Part shown: piece after piece, positions 29,024 through 33,799 of the stretch | Position numbering within the stretch: position 1 is the stretch's first letter | Layout of the letters: each line of letters opens with the position of its first letter | Source: Clostridia bacterium | Lineage (GTDB): Bacteria > Bacillota > Clostridia > Oscillospirales > Acutalibacteraceae | NCBI GenBank assembly: GCA_017629275.1 | Contig: JAGBXM010000046.1 | Span: forward strand, 1 to 33,799 | Reading direction: 5' to 3' | DNA: 33,799 nucleotides | Notes under the pieces: model-generated | Told to the model about the DNA's origin: nothing | Database searches by the model: none | Seen by the model: the letters and a program-made list of their open reading frames with translations, nothing else | Position numbers and translations under genes: made by a program

Positions 29024-31054
29024 ATGCGATCAACAGATAACGTAAGATATGTTAAAGGCGTCGGCGAAAAAAGAGCCGAGCTGTTTCGACAGCTCGGCAT
29101 TGAGAGCGTCGGCGCTCTTTTGCGCCATTATCCACGAAGCTACATAGACCGCTCACGTCCTCTGAAGCTTCGTGAAGCGCCGTTCGACCGTCCCTGCTGT
29201 ATCAAGGCCAAGGTCTTCAGCGAGGTACGCGAGATATACGTGCGCCACAAAATGGTGCTTTATAAATTCTTTGCCAACGACGGCGAAGAAAACGTTGAGA
29301 TAACGCTTTTTAATCAGAAATGGGCGGCCGAAAAACTCGAATTCGGTAAAGAATTTCTGTTTTACGGTCAGGTCAATCGCACCCTTTTCTCGTGTGAGAT
29401 GTCCTCGCCCGAGATATACGATTCAACCGAACAGACCATAAGCCCCGTTTATCCGCAAACGGCAGGACTAAACTCCAAAGCCATTTCCAAAGCGATACAA
29501 AACGCGCTTTCACAGTTTGTCCCCGACGACCCGTTACCGGAGACGCTACGTCAAAAATACAGTCTTATTTCGCTCAAAGAAGCACTTTTCGGCATCCACT
29601 TTCCCAAGACCTTCCGCGATGTCGAAGCGGCGAGAAAGCGACTTGTTTTCGAAGAACTTTTCTTTTTGCAGACGGGTATTCTGTTCCAGAAAAGCAGTCG
29701 AAGCAATTACACTCCCGTAAAGATTTCGGGACAGTTTTTAGATGAATTCAAAACCCGACTTCCCTTCACCCTGACCGAGGCACAGAGCAATGCTATTCTG
29801 CAATGCCTTAACGATATGCAGTCGGGCCGTCCGATGAGCCGACTTGTGCAGGGCGACGTTGGTTCGGGTAAAACGGCCGTGGCCGTAGCGTTGAGCTACT
29901 GCGCCGCCAAAGAGAATTGGCAGAGCGTTATAATGGCACCCACCGAGGTGTTGGCAACGCAACATTTTGAGACCTTCCGAAATCTGCTCAAAAACAGCGG
30001 TATAAACGTAGCACTTCTGACGGGTTCGGTAACTAAGGCCAAAAAGGCAAAAATCAAGGAGGCTGTTTTAAACGGCGAATACGATATAGTTATCGGCACC
30101 CACGCCGTTTTGCAGGACGACGTGTGCTTCAAAAGATTGGGACTCATCGTCACCGACGAGCAACACCGCTTCGGTGTCGAACAAAGAACAAGCCTGACCG
30201 CCAAGGGTAATGAACCGCATATGCTTGTTATGTCGGCAACGCCGATTCCCCGTACCATGTCACTCATTTTCTACGGCGACCTTGATATAAGCATTATTGA
30301 TTCCCTGCCGCGCGGACGTCAACCTATTGCCACCTATCTGATAGACTCAAGCATACGTCAACGCTCTTATAACTATATCCGCAACCACCTTGACCAAGGC
30401 CGTCAGGGCTATATCGTCTGCCCGATGGTTGAAGAAAACGAAACGGCCGATCTGGCCTCTGCGGTCAAATACTACGAGGATATCAAGGAAAACGATTTTA
30501 AGAACTACACGGTTGGTCTTTTGCACGGTAAAATGAAACCCAAAGAAAAGGATGCCGTGATGAAGGCATTCGCTTCCGGCGAGATCCAGTTGCTCGTATC
30601 GACTACCGTTATCGAGGTGGGTATCGACGTGCCCAATGCCGTTATAATGCTGATAGAAAACGCCGAACGGTTTGGCCTTAGTCAGCTTCATCAGTTAAGA
30701 GGTCGAATCGGTCGCGGACAGTATGCCTCGACCTGCATTCTGCTCAGTGACCGCGGCGGCAACGACACCAAGCAAAGGCTCAAATTTATGTGCAGTACCA
30801 CCGACGGCTTCAAGGTTGCCGACAAGGATCTTGAGCTTCGCGGCCCGGGTGATTTTTTAGGCAAACGTCAGCACGGTCTGCCTGAACTCAAAATAGCCGA
30901 TTTATCGGAGGATATGGAACTGTTCAGAGCGGCAGGCAACGCGGCCAAAGAGCTTTACCGCACCGACCCCACCCTGAAATCGCCTGAAAATCAGTGCCTT
31001 CGCACCGAAATCTCCACCCTTTTCAAAACCGCCAAGACCTACGGATATAACTAA
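29024..31054 (+). CDS. recG: ATP-dependent DNA helicase RecG
   Basis: Rescues stalled replication forks by branch migration. The 676-residue protein has an N-terminal helix-hairpin-helix/wedge OB region (about 1-230, starting RYVKGVGEKRAELFRQLG), then the two helicase lobes: GDVGSGKT (277-284), the DEQH box in TDEQHRFGVEQR, SATPIPRT, STTVIEVGIDVPNA and QLHQLRGRIGRG. The TRG-like motif GPGDFLGKRQHGLPELKIADL lies near the end. The length is normal. The yloU-yloV-recG order matches Bacillus except that serine dehydratase genes are absent between them. No strong ribosome binding site is seen before ATG 29024, so expression probably depends on translation of fakA, which ends one base earlier. Confidence 0.97.
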   Translation: MRSTDNVRYVKGVGEKRAELFRQLGIESVGALLRHYPRSYIDRSRPLKLREAPFDRPCCIKAKVFSEVREIYVRHKMVLYKFFANDGEENVEITLFNQKWAAEKLEFGKEFLFYGQVNRTLFSCEMSSPEIYDSTEQTISPVYPQTAGLNSKAISKAIQNALSQFVPDDPLPETLRQKYSLISLKEALFGIHFPKTFRDVEAARKRLVFEELFFLQTGILFQKSSRSNYTPVKISGQFLDEFKTRLPFTLTEAQSNAILQCLNDMQSGRPMSRLVQGDVGSGKTAVAVALSYCAAKENWQSVIMAPTEVLATQHFETFRNLLKNSGINVALLTGSVTKAKKAKIKEAVLNGEYDIVIGTHAVLQDDVCFKRLGLIVTDEQHRFGVEQRTSLTAKGNEPHMLVMSATPIPRTMSLIFYGDLDISIIDSLPRGRQPIATYLIDSSIRQRSYNYIRNHLDQGRQGYIVCPMVEENETADLASAVKYYEDIKENDFKNYTVGLLHGKMKPKEKDAVMKAFASGEIQLLVSTTVIEVGIDVPNAVIMLIENAERFGLSQLHQLRGRIGRGQYASTCILLSDRGGNDTKQRLKFMCSTTDGFKVADKDLELRGPGDFLGKRQHGLPELKIADLSEDMELFRAAGNAAKELYRTDPTLKSPENQCLRTEISTLFKTAKTYGYN

Positions 31055-31056
31055 AC

Positions 31057-31093
31057 AAAGCACTATCAAAGCAGATTGCCTTGATAGTGCTTT
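31057..31093. terminator. Bidirectional terminator between recG and the TerB-like gene
   Basis: A perfect 13-bp stem, AAAGCACTATCAA and TTGATAGTGCTTT, around an 11-base loop, then TAAATTT. On the minus strand it is followed by GTTTAG after the T-rich stem end, so it suits both convergent units. Confidence 0.88.
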
Positions 31094-31115
31094 TAAATTT
31101 AAATATACCGCCGAC

Positions 31116-31580
31116 TTAACCTTCACAAAGCGCCTTGAAGCGTCTGACCTCTTCAAGCTCTTTTTCGGCAACGATGCCGTCACTTTCAATAATGATCTCG
31201 CTTACCAACTGAAGAAGTGATTTATAAGCATCGGCAAGTTTTGTGTTTATTTTTCTCATCAGAGTAACACCGTTTTCAAAGCTTTCATCGACAAATCGGC
31301 TTATATCATCGACGCAACTGTTGTAAACAGCAATCATTTCCTCTTTTGTATAATCGAAGCCGAAGGTCTTATTGAAATATTCAACCTCTTTTTTATCAAT
31401 AATGCCATCGACGCCGATGAGCTTTATAATAACGGTTGCAAGATCGTTGGAATAAAAGGCATCCATCTCGCCGTGTGCCTCTTTGTTCCAAAGCTTTAAC
31501 TCCTCGATAGAGTCACACCCGAGAATGAACGCTTCGTGTCTGGCTCTGAAGATTTCTGCCTTACTTTCCAAATTTGTCAT
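31116..31580 (-). CDS. TerB-like domain protein, partner of the metzincin gene
   Basis: A 154-residue helical protein with two acidic DG motifs spaced as in TerB/DjlA-type domains: GVDGIIDKKEVEYF (56-69) and ESDGIVAEKELEEVRRF (132-148). In TerB such residues bind metal. TerB proteins belong to tellurite/stress gene sets and are often fused or linked to processing and defence proteins, with no agreed biochemical role. No signal peptide is present. GGAAGGGG precedes the ATG at 31580, one base after the stop of the metzincin gene (31582), so the two are certainly co-transcribed and probably act together. The TerB call rests on the paired motifs and helical pattern only. Confidence 0.68.
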   Translation of the reverse strand: MTNLESKAEIFRARHEAFILGCDSIEELKLWNKEAHGEMDAFYSNDLATVIIKLIGVDGIIDKKEVEYFNKTFGFDYTKEEMIAVYNSCVDDISRFVDESFENGVTLMRKINTKLADAYKSLLQLVSEIIIESDGIVAEKELEEVRRFKALCEG

Positions 31581-31581
31581 T

Positions 31582-32676
31582 TTAATTACCCCTTCCCAAT
31601 GCTTCGGACACTTTATTTTTAAACCTTTCGGATTGATAAAGTTGCATTCTGTTTTTCATAAAAGCCATAATAACCATTTCAATATCATTGTTACTTATCG
31701 GCCCGTTGTGATCGCACATAACGAGGTTATATGCTTTCCGACCGACGGCATAACAGTCCAACTCATCATACGTGCCGAAATCTACACCACTGAGTCCGTC
31801 TTTTTCATTGCAATACAAATCACCAAGACCTATAACGTGACCGAATTCGTGCTTGGCAACGTTCATAAGGTCGGTATAATCATCAAAATTCCCGTCTTCG
31901 CTCAAAATATAAATATTCTTAACAGAGTGCACCGTCCACCCAAAAAGATGAGTGGCAAATGAGCGCCGTTGTTCAACTGCTTCCACAAAAACGTTTTTGC
32001 CGTTTTTGAACAACACGGTGTTTTTAATTTCATCAAACATTGCAATAACGGAGTTGGTAAACGGATATATCACAAGGTTATCCAATGCCTGTTCGTTACG
32101 TGTGACAACTACCTTGACGGTAAGCTGTTGTCCCCCAAATACGGTATATTCTCCCGCCCACGCTGACACGCCTGCAACAATTGCTTCTTCAAACTGCTCC
32201 GCATTCGGCAAAGCATCGAGATATACGAATTTAAGATTTACACTGAGTGTCAGAATATTTTTTCCGTTCTCATACTTCAGAACGGCATCGACGGGTGTGA
32301 ACATACCTTTTTTATTGATTTTAATGCGGCGTCGGTCAAAATCAACAAGCGGACCCGAAAAAGCCTTTTCCTTGAATTTTTTATCATATCTGAAATTACA
32401 GTAAGAGTTGAGATAAGCCCTTGCCTGAATACACCCTCTGTCGGCGGCACTCATTATGAGTGACAGCGCGTTATCGACATCATTTTTGCCTTTTACCTCT
32501 ATTACTCCGTCAAGAATAAAGCGTCCAAACCAAAAAGCGGCTTCACTGTCACCCAAAGCGAATGCTTCATAAATCATCTTCAAGCCTTCGTTCTGTTTTT
32601 CTCGGTCACTTGACGGATCAAAGATCAAATGCTTTCCCGCTTCCCTTATTAACTCGGGAGTCATTTTTTCATCCAT
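31582..32676 (-). CDS. Sel1-repeat protein with C-terminal metzincin-type zinc protease domain
   Basis: A 364-residue protein that I do not recognise as a named family. Residues about 25-92 look like two Sel1/TPR-like helical repeats (AAFWFGRFILDGV, ALSLIMSAADRGCIQARAYLN). A beta-rich linker follows (about 95-155). The last 200 residues resemble a metzincin: the helix EEAIVAGVSAWAG, then H276-E277-x-x-H280-x-x-G283-x-x-D286 (HEFGHVIGLGD), and a candidate Met-turn at Met320 (NLVMC), 34 residues later. Asp as third zinc ligand occurs in snapalysin-like enzymes. There is no signal peptide or membrane segment, which is unusual because most metzincins are secreted. GAAGGTGA precedes ATG 32676. It is the first gene of the unit with TerB, under a perfect-consensus promoter. 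Confidence 0.8.
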   Translation of the reverse strand: MDEKMTPELIREAGKHLIFDPSSDREKQNEGLKMIYEAFALGDSEAAFWFGRFILDGVIEVKGKNDVDNALSLIMSAADRGCIQARAYLNSYCNFRYDKKFKEKAFSGPLVDFDRRRIKINKKGMFTPVDAVLKYENGKNILTLSVNLKFVYLDALPNAEQFEEAIVAGVSAWAGEYTVFGGQQLTVKVVVTRNEQALDNLVIYPFTNSVIAMFDEIKNTVLFKNGKNVFVEAVEQRRSFATHLFGWTVHSVKNIYILSEDGNFDDYTDLMNVAKHEFGHVIGLGDLYCNEKDGLSGVDFGTYDELDCYAVGRKAYNLVMCDHNGPISNNDIEMVIMAFMKNRMQLYQSERFKNKVSEALGRGN

Positions 32677-32711
32677 CCGTTCACCTTCTCTTAACTGCTA
32701 GGCTTCGGTTT

Positions 32712-32740
32712 ATTATACCCTACATCGACAAGGTTGTCAA
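32712..32740 (-). promoter_or_regulatory. Perfect-consensus promoter of the metzincin-TerB operon
   Basis: Read on the minus strand: TTGACA (32740-32735), exactly 17 bases, TATAAT (32717-32712). Both boxes match the sigma-A consensus at every base. The leader would be about 30 bases long. Confidence 0.85.
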
Positions 32741-32749
32741 GAAAACGAC

Positions 32750-32778
32750 AAGCGGAGTCGTATTTAACGAACCCGCTT
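32750..32778 (-). terminator. Weak terminator downstream of the amidohydrolase gene
   Basis: Read on the minus strand: AAGCGG and CCGCTT pair, with a 2x2 internal mismatch and a further 4-bp stem closing a 5-base loop. CGTTTTC follows. The T run is short, so some readthrough into the metzincin unit is possible. Confidence 0.45.
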
Positions 32779-32789
32779 TGAAGTTACAG

Positions 32790-33799
32790 TCACTTATTCT
32801 CATAATAAGCCTTAATATTTTTCAGATTTTCGCGATCCTCGTCGCTCAAAATCTCATCCAACGACTCAAGCCGTGCAATTTCTTCTTTGATTTTTAACAC
32901 GTCATTTGGTTTTGGTGTTACGCCTAAAAGCTTGATAAAATTGCCGCTCATAATTTTCTCTTTCGCCTCTTTTGAAATACCGAGACCTACGCAATGATAC
33001 TTACCCCACTCAAATGACTCGTTGCTTTCCAAGGCGGTAGAAACAAGTGTATAAAGACTTGAATGATAATTAGGTGCCAAAGTATCATTTACATCAGTGC
33101 CATAATATAAACGGTCGGCAAAGCGTTCAAAGAACAGCTTGGCTTTTTCTAAACTTTTACCAAAATTCTCATACATTTCTTTGCCCGGTGTCAGGTCAAA
33201 GCAAACGTTAGGGTACTTTTCCATAAATGCGGTAGCCCTATCAATATCAGCCGACAGAAAATAAAAATGTGCAAAAATCACCTTCAAATTCGGGTGTCTT
33301 GCCAGAATATCATCAACCTCTTTGTAATATTCCTCTTTAGGTCTGCGGCCCTCAGCACCGTAAAATCTGCCGTGGGTCAAAGCATACTCGTTGACGGTGT
33401 TGATATCCCAACTTTCCTCGGGGTCGGCAACGTGCATCAAAATAGGAATTCCGTTATCCTCTGCATATTGGAACATCGTATCAAACCGCATATCGTTCAT
33501 ACGAAAATGTAACTCCAACTCAAGACTTGGGTGGCATTCCAGAATTTTAAGCCCCTCAAAGCCCATTTCCAAACCTTTTTTCAGTTGTGTTAAATATTCC
33601 TCGGCACCCTCACCGTGAACAAGCCCCATAAAGGCCGAAGAATACGGTGTCAACACATCTTTAAGTTGCAAAGACAACAAATTCTGCGTGTGGTAATATT
33701 TAGCCGACGGTGAAACGGGTATCGACAAAATGCAGTTACGGTCGATTCCGTTAGCATTTTTCAACCGAGTATAATAATCGAAAAGCTGGTCGGCATTCA
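32790..33799 (-). CDS. Amidohydrolase family protein (TIM barrel), 5' end outside window
   Basis: The frame is open to the window edge: before the TTG at 33764 it reads NADQLFDYYTRL without a stop, so the true start lies to the right. About 335 residues are visible. Metal- and substrate-binding motifs of the amidohydrolase-2 group can be seen: GLVHGEGAEEYLTQLKKGLEMGFEGLKI, ILMHVADP (His), VIFAHFYF (His) and YYGTDVND (the Asp of the metal site). The ending LKNIKAYYENK is hydrophilic and normal. Family members include decarboxylases and hydrolases of small aromatic or sugar-like acids; the substrate is not known. It lies upstream of the metzincin unit on the same strand, with a weak hairpin between. 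Confidence 0.85.
   Translation of the reverse strand, partial: NADQLFDYYTRLKNANGIDRNCILSIPVSPSAKYYHTQNLLSLQLKDVLTPYSSAFMGLVHGEGAEEYLTQLKKGLEMGFEGLKILECHPSLELELHFRMNDMRFDTMFQYAEDNGIPILMHVADPEESWDINTVNEYALTHGRFYGAEGRRPKEEYYKEVDDILARHPNLKVIFAHFYFLSADIDRATAFMEKYPNVCFDLTPGKEMYENFGKSLEKAKLFFERFADRLYYGTDVNDTLAPNYHSSLYTLVSTALESNESFEWGKYHCVGLGISKEAKEKIMSGNFIKLLGVTPKPNDVLKIKEEIARLESLDEILSDEDRENLKNIKAYYENK

Follow-up and report, generated by a model that had tools for sequence, protein, structure and literature searches.

In some relatives of the Clostridia bacterium studied here, the gene of a Sel1-metzincin-type protease is grouped with genes for RyR-domain, AAA-AAA-M41 and TIR-LRR proteins and with genes for TIR-Sel1-metzincin fusions, a grouping that is new here. 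Because the same protease gene adjoins TIR and RyR immune-type genes in some of these relatives, we read it, together with the TerB-family gene that follows it in the window (the whole 33,799-nt stretch of DNA that was analysed), as the protease arm, restrained post-translationally, of a bacterial antiviral or stress system linked to TIR and RyR proteins, a tentative reading to which we assign a probability of about 0.4. If this is correct, a metzincin would join the executioner proteases of bacterial immunity, TerB would gain a concrete partner, and a membrane RyR-domain protein would be tied to TIR operons, making bacterial RyR function directly testable. No paper describing a metzincin-TerB/TIR/RyR module was recognised in searches of open-licence PMC papers, and the module is thus likely, though not proven, to be novel.

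The protease and its TerB-family neighbour

A single base separates the protease stop codon from the TerB ATG on the minus strand (Table 1). This spacing, together with the full-consensus promoter-like site and the 17-pair hairpin on either side, makes the two genes look like one transcription unit, in keeping with the two-gene operon proposed in the first-pass annotation, both open reading frames of which lie where it had placed them. The converging plus-strand neighbour is recG, as judged from its Pfam domains. Rfam gave no match within 30900-33799, and an RNA element around the pair was rejected on that basis.

Table 1 Features of the protease-TerB locus, in window coordinates.
Feature	Position	Strand	Evidence or remark
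Sel1 + metzincin-type protein, 364 aa	31582..32676	-	ORF; 430 homologues; invariant zinc-motif columns; Sel1 and matrixin-like parts in predicted model
Sel1-like helical region, residues 1-95	32392..32676	-	predicted model
Metzincin-type domain, residues 120-341	31654..32319	-	
Zinc motif HEFGHVIGLGD, residues 276-286	31819..31851	-	sequence; invariant ligand columns; also in six distant relatives
Met320, candidate Met-turn (YNLVM)	31717..31719	-	invariant in 36 sequences; aligned Met in five of six distant relatives
C-terminal tail SEALGRGN, residues 357-364	31585..31608	-	conserved in active and inactive intracellular paralogues
GGAAGGGGT, likely TerB ribosome-binding site within tail codons	31588..31596	-	sequence
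TerB-family protein, 154 aa	31116..31580	-	ORF; 161 homologues; 28 of 31 aligned family members match Pfam TerB
TerB first acidic motif D58-G59 to E65, half-EF-hand-like	31386..31409	-	D58 and E65 invariant
TerB second acidic motif D134-G135 to E141	31158..31181	-	D134 and E141 invariant
Promoter-like site TTGACA-17-TATAAT, 12/12 consensus	32712..32740	-	ends 35 nt upstream of protease ATG
Terminator-like hairpin, 17 pairs, T-rich tail, 3' of TerB gene	31057..31093	-	sequence

The homologues of the protease were collected at E<=1e-3, and the best 120 of the 430 were listed. In a 36-sequence alignment taken from these 120, H276, E277, H280, G283, D286 and M320 are invariant, and HExxHxxG[LIV]GDLY is kept in 120 of the 120 listed (the stricter GLGDLY in 119). 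A chance HExxH was rejected, the zinc motif being invariant across the family alignment. H276, E277, H280, D286 and Met320 are all where the first-pass annotation had named them, and the conservation of HExxH that it had asked of homologues holds for the stand-alone proteins but fails in nine of ten TIR-fused ones. Among the six distant relatives the aligned Met is missing, at the level of sequence, in the archaeal row.

The predicted model of the protease combines a Sel1-like and a matrixin-like part. Sel1-like helical repeats are present according to both the model and PDB profile matches, and with the zinc motif and Met320 they bear out the Sel1 plus metzincin architecture proposed earlier; Pfam Sel1 was not reported for the window protein, and PF08238, which we take to be the Sel1 model, was listed for P0261. 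In the predicted model a single helix runs through residues 267-287, with a mean pLDDT of 61 over 281-290, and the third ligand is not seen in place. The window protein missed the curated profile cut-offs for M10 (17.0 bits vs 24) and M6dom (24.6 vs 110.8), M7 was not reported for it, and over the 36 aligned members Pfam M7 matched one and M10 ten. A weak PDB profile match (E 0.095, residues 268-300) was to 1c7k, a Streptomyces-type zinc endoprotease, presumably snapalysin. Snapalysin (M7), matrixins (M10) and M6 peptidases share with the protease HExxHxxGxx[D/H] followed by a Met, and its model is matrixin-like; the protease differs from them in having no apparent signal peptide, Sel1 in front and a conserved tail behind, and in leaving the curated cut-offs unmet. 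No PADLOC model matched the protease. A homologue in L007 (P0014) has a cysteine-rich, zinc-ribbon-like N-terminal extension, and one A1 member weakly matches a zinc-ribbon model.

Known M6, M7 and M10 peptidases are secreted, and metzincins are usually known as a secreted class. By a crude Kyte-Doolittle test over 19 residues, the hydropathy maxima of the protease and TerB are 1.03 and 1.17, respectively, and both N-termini are charged, so that neither protein is predicted to have a signal peptide or a membrane helix; the earlier claim to this effect for the protease agrees with the test. A classically secreted protease was rejected, the N-terminus having no hydrophobic stretch, and the protease is apparently intracellular.

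The match of the window's second protein to Pfam TerB is under the curated cut-off (E=0.027), and the family model (PF05099) matches the aligned members counted in Table 1 at E<=0.01, with a best value of 3.9e-9. D58, E65, D134 and E141 are invariant in the 31-member alignment; the TerB-like neighbour with two acidic DG motifs described earlier is upheld. TerB proteins bind metal, and what is seen here is the conserved acidic motifs alone. The best sequence matches of the family profile in the PDB were to troponin C EF-hand loops, and these were weak (E 0.018). A model computed for P0121, which differs from the window protein at five residues, is all-helical (pLDDT 88.5); PDB fold searches with it gave no clear match, and no TerB entry stood out. 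PADLOC gave one marginal match for TerB (SP_VI, E 0.0042), and the TerB homologue P0178 bears a RyR domain. Ter/TerB stress modules likewise have a TerB-family protein adjoining a predicted effector, the difference being that the partner here is a metzincin; no other Ter genes showed among the selected neighbours scanned with Pfam.

An alignment-based scan with one genome per species gave 30 loci, or 28 after removal of the distant L033 and L034; L030 is cut inside the protease gene, leaving 27 database loci with its 3' end. TerB lies directly downstream of the protease in 12 of these 27 (13/28 including the window) and 3.8 kb upstream of it in L024. The protease-bearing set of 30 entries comprises 29 distinct genomes, G194 and G453 having the same coordinates and an identical gene. 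TerB was matched in 18 of the 29, weakly in G447, and in a class sample of 391 genomes it was matched in three, namely the two with a full-length protease and, weakly, one more; 18/29 against 1/389 others corresponds to a Fisher P of 4e-23 with phylogeny ignored. Completeness was given for few of the protease-bearing genomes, so absences of TerB, and likewise of RyR proteins, are soft. With TerB not directly downstream in 15 of the 27 usable loci and unmatched in 11 of the 29 genomes, the two genes form a common but not an obligatory unit: the tie between protease and TerB that was claimed from the window recurs elsewhere, but adjacency is not general and TerB is often absent.

RyR-domain, AAA-M41 and TIR genes near the protease

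A RyR-domain protein is encoded in the fetched stretch around the protease at eight of the 28 database loci, against 0.19 expected from rounded genome sizes; its gene is upstream of the protease in seven loci and downstream in L007. These neighbours have about 600-780 aa, three to four predicted N-terminal membrane helices and a C-terminal RyR domain, with a weak TrkA_N match in four of the seven scanned. The RyR assignment is based on PDB profile matches, the family profile matching 6uhi (E 6.8e-6) and the bacterial RyR entries 3nrt and 6uag; Pfam RyR (PF02026) is weak in three of the seven scanned (E 0.02-0.09) and gives no match in four. According to the available part of PMC13232231, a phage RyR enzyme hydrolyses 2'cADPR and 3'cADPR, with ligand residues H75, W78, H100 and D117. 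By pattern and spacing these correspond to H582, W585, H612 and D629 of the L006 protein, which are invariant in eight sequences. A profile built from the eight genes near the protease, an origin that favours the resulting figure, found a RyR-domain membrane protein in 23 of the 29 protease-bearing genomes (best E 6.6e-100 or lower in each; six unmatched), compared with 15/389 other class genomes at E<=1e-10 (Fisher P 1e-22, phylogeny ignored).

An AAA-AAA-M41 protein occurs at four loci (L009, L011, L015 and L016) and, at E<=1e-100, in 15 of the 29 genomes, a count for the protease-bearing set only. Its PADLOC matches (IetA at 8.5e-48 and others) probably reflect the AAA domains. TIR-TM-LRR genes adjoin the protease in L029 and L030, and L025 begins inside the LRR part of another. 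On a different contig of the latter genome (L052), a TIR-metzincin fusion comes after a RyR-type gene, and a TIR-LRR gene then begins. In L029, genes for a RyR-type protein, for two TIR-metzincin fusions, for a TIR-TM-LRR protein, for the protease and for TerB stand in a row. Between TerB and the RyR protein, L024 encodes a protein that clusters with a Card1-like protein (below the Pfam cut-off). At least one TIR, LRR, RyR or AAA-M41 gene is present in 12 of the 28 database loci and none in the stretch held of the other 16; the window is a further locus without such neighbours. The link to defence genes that had been guessed from the window was borne out for the TIR, RyR-domain and AAA-M41 proteins.

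The TIR proteins P0263-P0360, L029:6087-7952 and L092:2815-4848 belong to a large Clostridia family, most with LRRs. Of the 82 listed TIR proteins of at least 550 aa, 77 have a single predicted membrane helix, which begins around residues 130-230 and separates TIR from LRR; the order TIR-helix-LRR is a Toll-like-receptor-like layout. A family of about 160 aa recurs near AAA-M41 or TIR-LRR genes (L009, L011, L015, L058 and L092), as tandem pairs in L009 and L011; it had no Pfam match, and its YbjN label was given by eye.

The best promoter-like match upstream of the protease was surveyed at 21 of the 28 database loci, with no shuffle control. Loci L005, L008, L013, L023 and L026 have at most one mismatch and no system genes upstream. 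Where RyR or AAA-M41 genes precede the protease (L006, L009, L010, L011, L015 and L032) there are three to four mismatches, as expected under co-transcription, although L024, also behind a RyR gene, has two; L014 and L020 have two as well. Because L012, L017, L018, L019, L022, L027 and L031 have 3-5 mismatches with no RyR or AAA-M41 gene upstream, the apparent contrast between loci with and without upstream system genes is only a tendency.

Parts that are adjacent in relatives are scattered in the window's own genome. Away from the protease-TerB pair, RyR-type proteins are encoded on contigs C17 and C94, and the gene on C94 immediately follows one for an AAA-AAA-M41 protein. One of five TIR matches is a TIR-LRR gene on C136 that matches its L029 counterpart at E 1.1e-105. 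The C136 protein has one strong hydrophobic stretch; its gene adjoins a PrsW-family gene and lies near a relative of the 160-aa family, members of which are encoded upstream of the protease at L009, L011 and L015. The PrsW-family gene (L092:4859-5773) encodes an intramembrane metalloprotease. On C94 (L047), genes for the AAA-AAA-M41 protein, the RyR-type membrane protein, a STAND-like NTPase (NPHP3_N, just under the cut-off), a Card1-like protein (below the cut-off) and a CLC channel are clustered.

Among 60 genomes (the window's own and 59 relatives) the only full-length protease gene is that of the window, and one other genome has a short relative; full-length genes occur in one of four genomes of the genus (own included) and in two of 391 of the class, with further weak class-level matches in L039-L042. 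In a congener, a gene judged by eye to be NUDIX-like and a DUF559 gene (L104:10306-11221) take the place of the pair between recG and the amidohydrolase gene. A segment of the same genome as the window (L065; C118:1-1197) has about 80% DNA identity to window positions 32607-33799, covering the protease 5' end and the amidohydrolase, and represents a second copy or mixed strains. Phage or plasmid carriage was rejected in the sense that plasmids, phages and viral contigs gave no match.

TIR-fused copies, distant relatives and the C-terminal tail

TIR-Sel1-metzincin fusions form 10 listed clusters (P0241-P0247 and P0249-P0251), the fragment P0248, which lacks TIR, having been left out. Nine of the ten have lost one or more zinc ligands; P0251 keeps HEAGHIFGLGD, and hence not every TIR-fused copy is dead. 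The C-terminus of all ten reads S-K-ALG[KR] and then GN, or DN in P0250. Likewise, S.ALG[KR]GN ends 116 of the 120 listed stand-alone homologues (the best 120 of 430), the other four being one-residue variants, and variants are also found in database loci L020, L024 and L026. Two short L030 ORFs with the tail look like ends of TIR-fused copies. Over residues 343-364 the pLDDT is under 50, and the tail is predicted to be disordered. A tail common to unrelated proteins was rejected: among the ORFs of the loci collected up to that stage, none that clearly falls outside the family carried it, with a search pattern that misses variants such as that of L026. A specific partner is suggested by the shared tail and by TIR-fused copies that are mostly dead; since the tail is kept where TerB is absent, it is probably not solely a TerB-docking site.

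The same catalytic core ends the RHS-repeat proteins L036 and L037 and a third protein, L038, in which no RHS match was found. These resemble the protease in the catalytic core, the Met region and an N-D-[IV]-type helix, but L036 and L037 have an RHS carrier instead of Sel1 and all three are without the S-x-ALG[KR]GN tail, which was not seen in any of the six distant relatives; these comprise RHS-type, apparently secreted and archaeal proteins and a short one. RHS C-termini of this type are polymorphic toxins. The gene next to L037 and L038 encodes WG-like repeats, as judged by eye.

In the tail codons, GGAA[AG]GGG is present in 12 of 13 tails that precede TerB and in two of 18 others (16 without TerB next and the two L029 TIR fusions); a looser pattern, including bases after the stop, gave 14/15 vs 9/16. 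In loci without TerB next, the codons drift and the amino acids S-x-A-L-G-x-G-[N/D] stay nearly fixed. Selection thus seems to act on the tail at the protein level, and the tail seems to double as a translational signal. The 12 of 13 tails would fit conservation of the tail as a mere by-product of encoding the TerB ribosome-binding site, but this was rejected and is largely refuted by the amino acids that persist as codons drift, which leaves it a negligible probability. Nor do we favour a proteolytically released signalling peptide, as in FxSxx-COOH peptide-processing systems. The tail is predicted to be disordered and is conserved whether or not the copy is active, and the available part of PMC7159879 offers the precedent of a zincin paired with a conserved peptide at a C-terminus; here, however, the tail sits on the protease itself and, among the loci collected up to that stage, in no ORF that clearly falls outside its family, making a peptide signal very improbable.

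A proposed protease arm and its alternatives

From the motifs, gene order, co-occurrence, tail and codon pattern described above, we infer an enzymatic activity, a regulatory role for TerB, a signal, targets and an outcome along the following lines. The pair would be made constantly from the consensus promoter (the site itself is observed), and such constitutive expression would place control after translation. TerB, in which both acidic DG motifs are invariant, would restrain or gate the protease, to which its dosage may be tied by the likely ribosome-binding site inside the last protease codons. A shared partner would dock on the tail that active proteases have in common with the dead TIR-fused copies. 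When the cell is infected or damaged, an ADP-ribose-type signal made by TIR enzymes would be read or cleared by the membrane RyR-domain protein, and the protease so released would cut cell proteins, stopping growth. The window would keep only the protease-TerB core, relatives of the other parts being observed elsewhere in the same genome. A more elaborate version is a Toll/ryanodine-receptor-like cascade, in which TIR-TM-LRR receptors and TIR-fused dead metzincins would produce or carry a cyclic ADP-ribose signal, a channel-like membrane protein would sense it through its RyR domain, the resulting ion change would act via the half-EF-hand TerB to unleash the metzincin, and active and dead copies would share a partner through the eight-residue tail; in this full form we consider it unlikely.

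An ordinary regulated protease of stress or protein quality control, whose proximity to TIR and RyR genes reflects clustering in variable islands, would be compatible with the 16 of 28 loci without any TIR, LRR, RyR or AAA-M41 gene in the stretch held, with the constitutive-looking promoter site and with the lack of a PADLOC model for the protease. It accounts poorly for a RyR protein at eight loci where 0.19 are expected, for TIR and metzincin in one polypeptide in 10 listed clusters and for the patchy occurrence of the full-length gene (1/4 genus genomes, 2/391 class genomes), and we place it somewhat on the improbable side. The RHS-repeat proteins and L038, which end in the same core, bring up a toxin-antitoxin-like pair with a metzincin related to RHS effector domains and TerB as antidote; genomes without the protease hardly ever gave a TerB match, and protease codons contain the likely ribosome-binding site of TerB. 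Such a partner should always accompany its toxin, but the protease has no detectable TerB in 11 of 29 genomes (draft gaps are possible) and no adjacent TerB in 15 of 27 loci, with the zinc motif intact, so that we regard an antidote role as improbable.

The preferred reading, a TIR/RyR-linked protease arm, has parallels in known systems. In type IV Thoeris, caspase-like proteases act downstream of TIR signalling. Thoeris and other TIR anti-phage systems share with the loci described here a TIR beside the protease (L029 and L030) and a RyR domain with ADP-ribose-binding-type residues, the difference being that the proposed effector is a metzincin. The available part of PMC12799240 describes pairs of a trypsin-like protease and a nuclease, the protease having been acquired by unrelated immune systems; they are similar in concept, with a metzincin and TerB here in place of trypsin-like protease and nuclease. 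The metallopeptidases in the available parts of PMC7159879 and PMC8195603 belong to other conflict systems or toxins and not to a metzincin-TerB module. No ThsA was found among the selected neighbours scanned, and PADLOC gave weak ThsB matches for the TIR parts.
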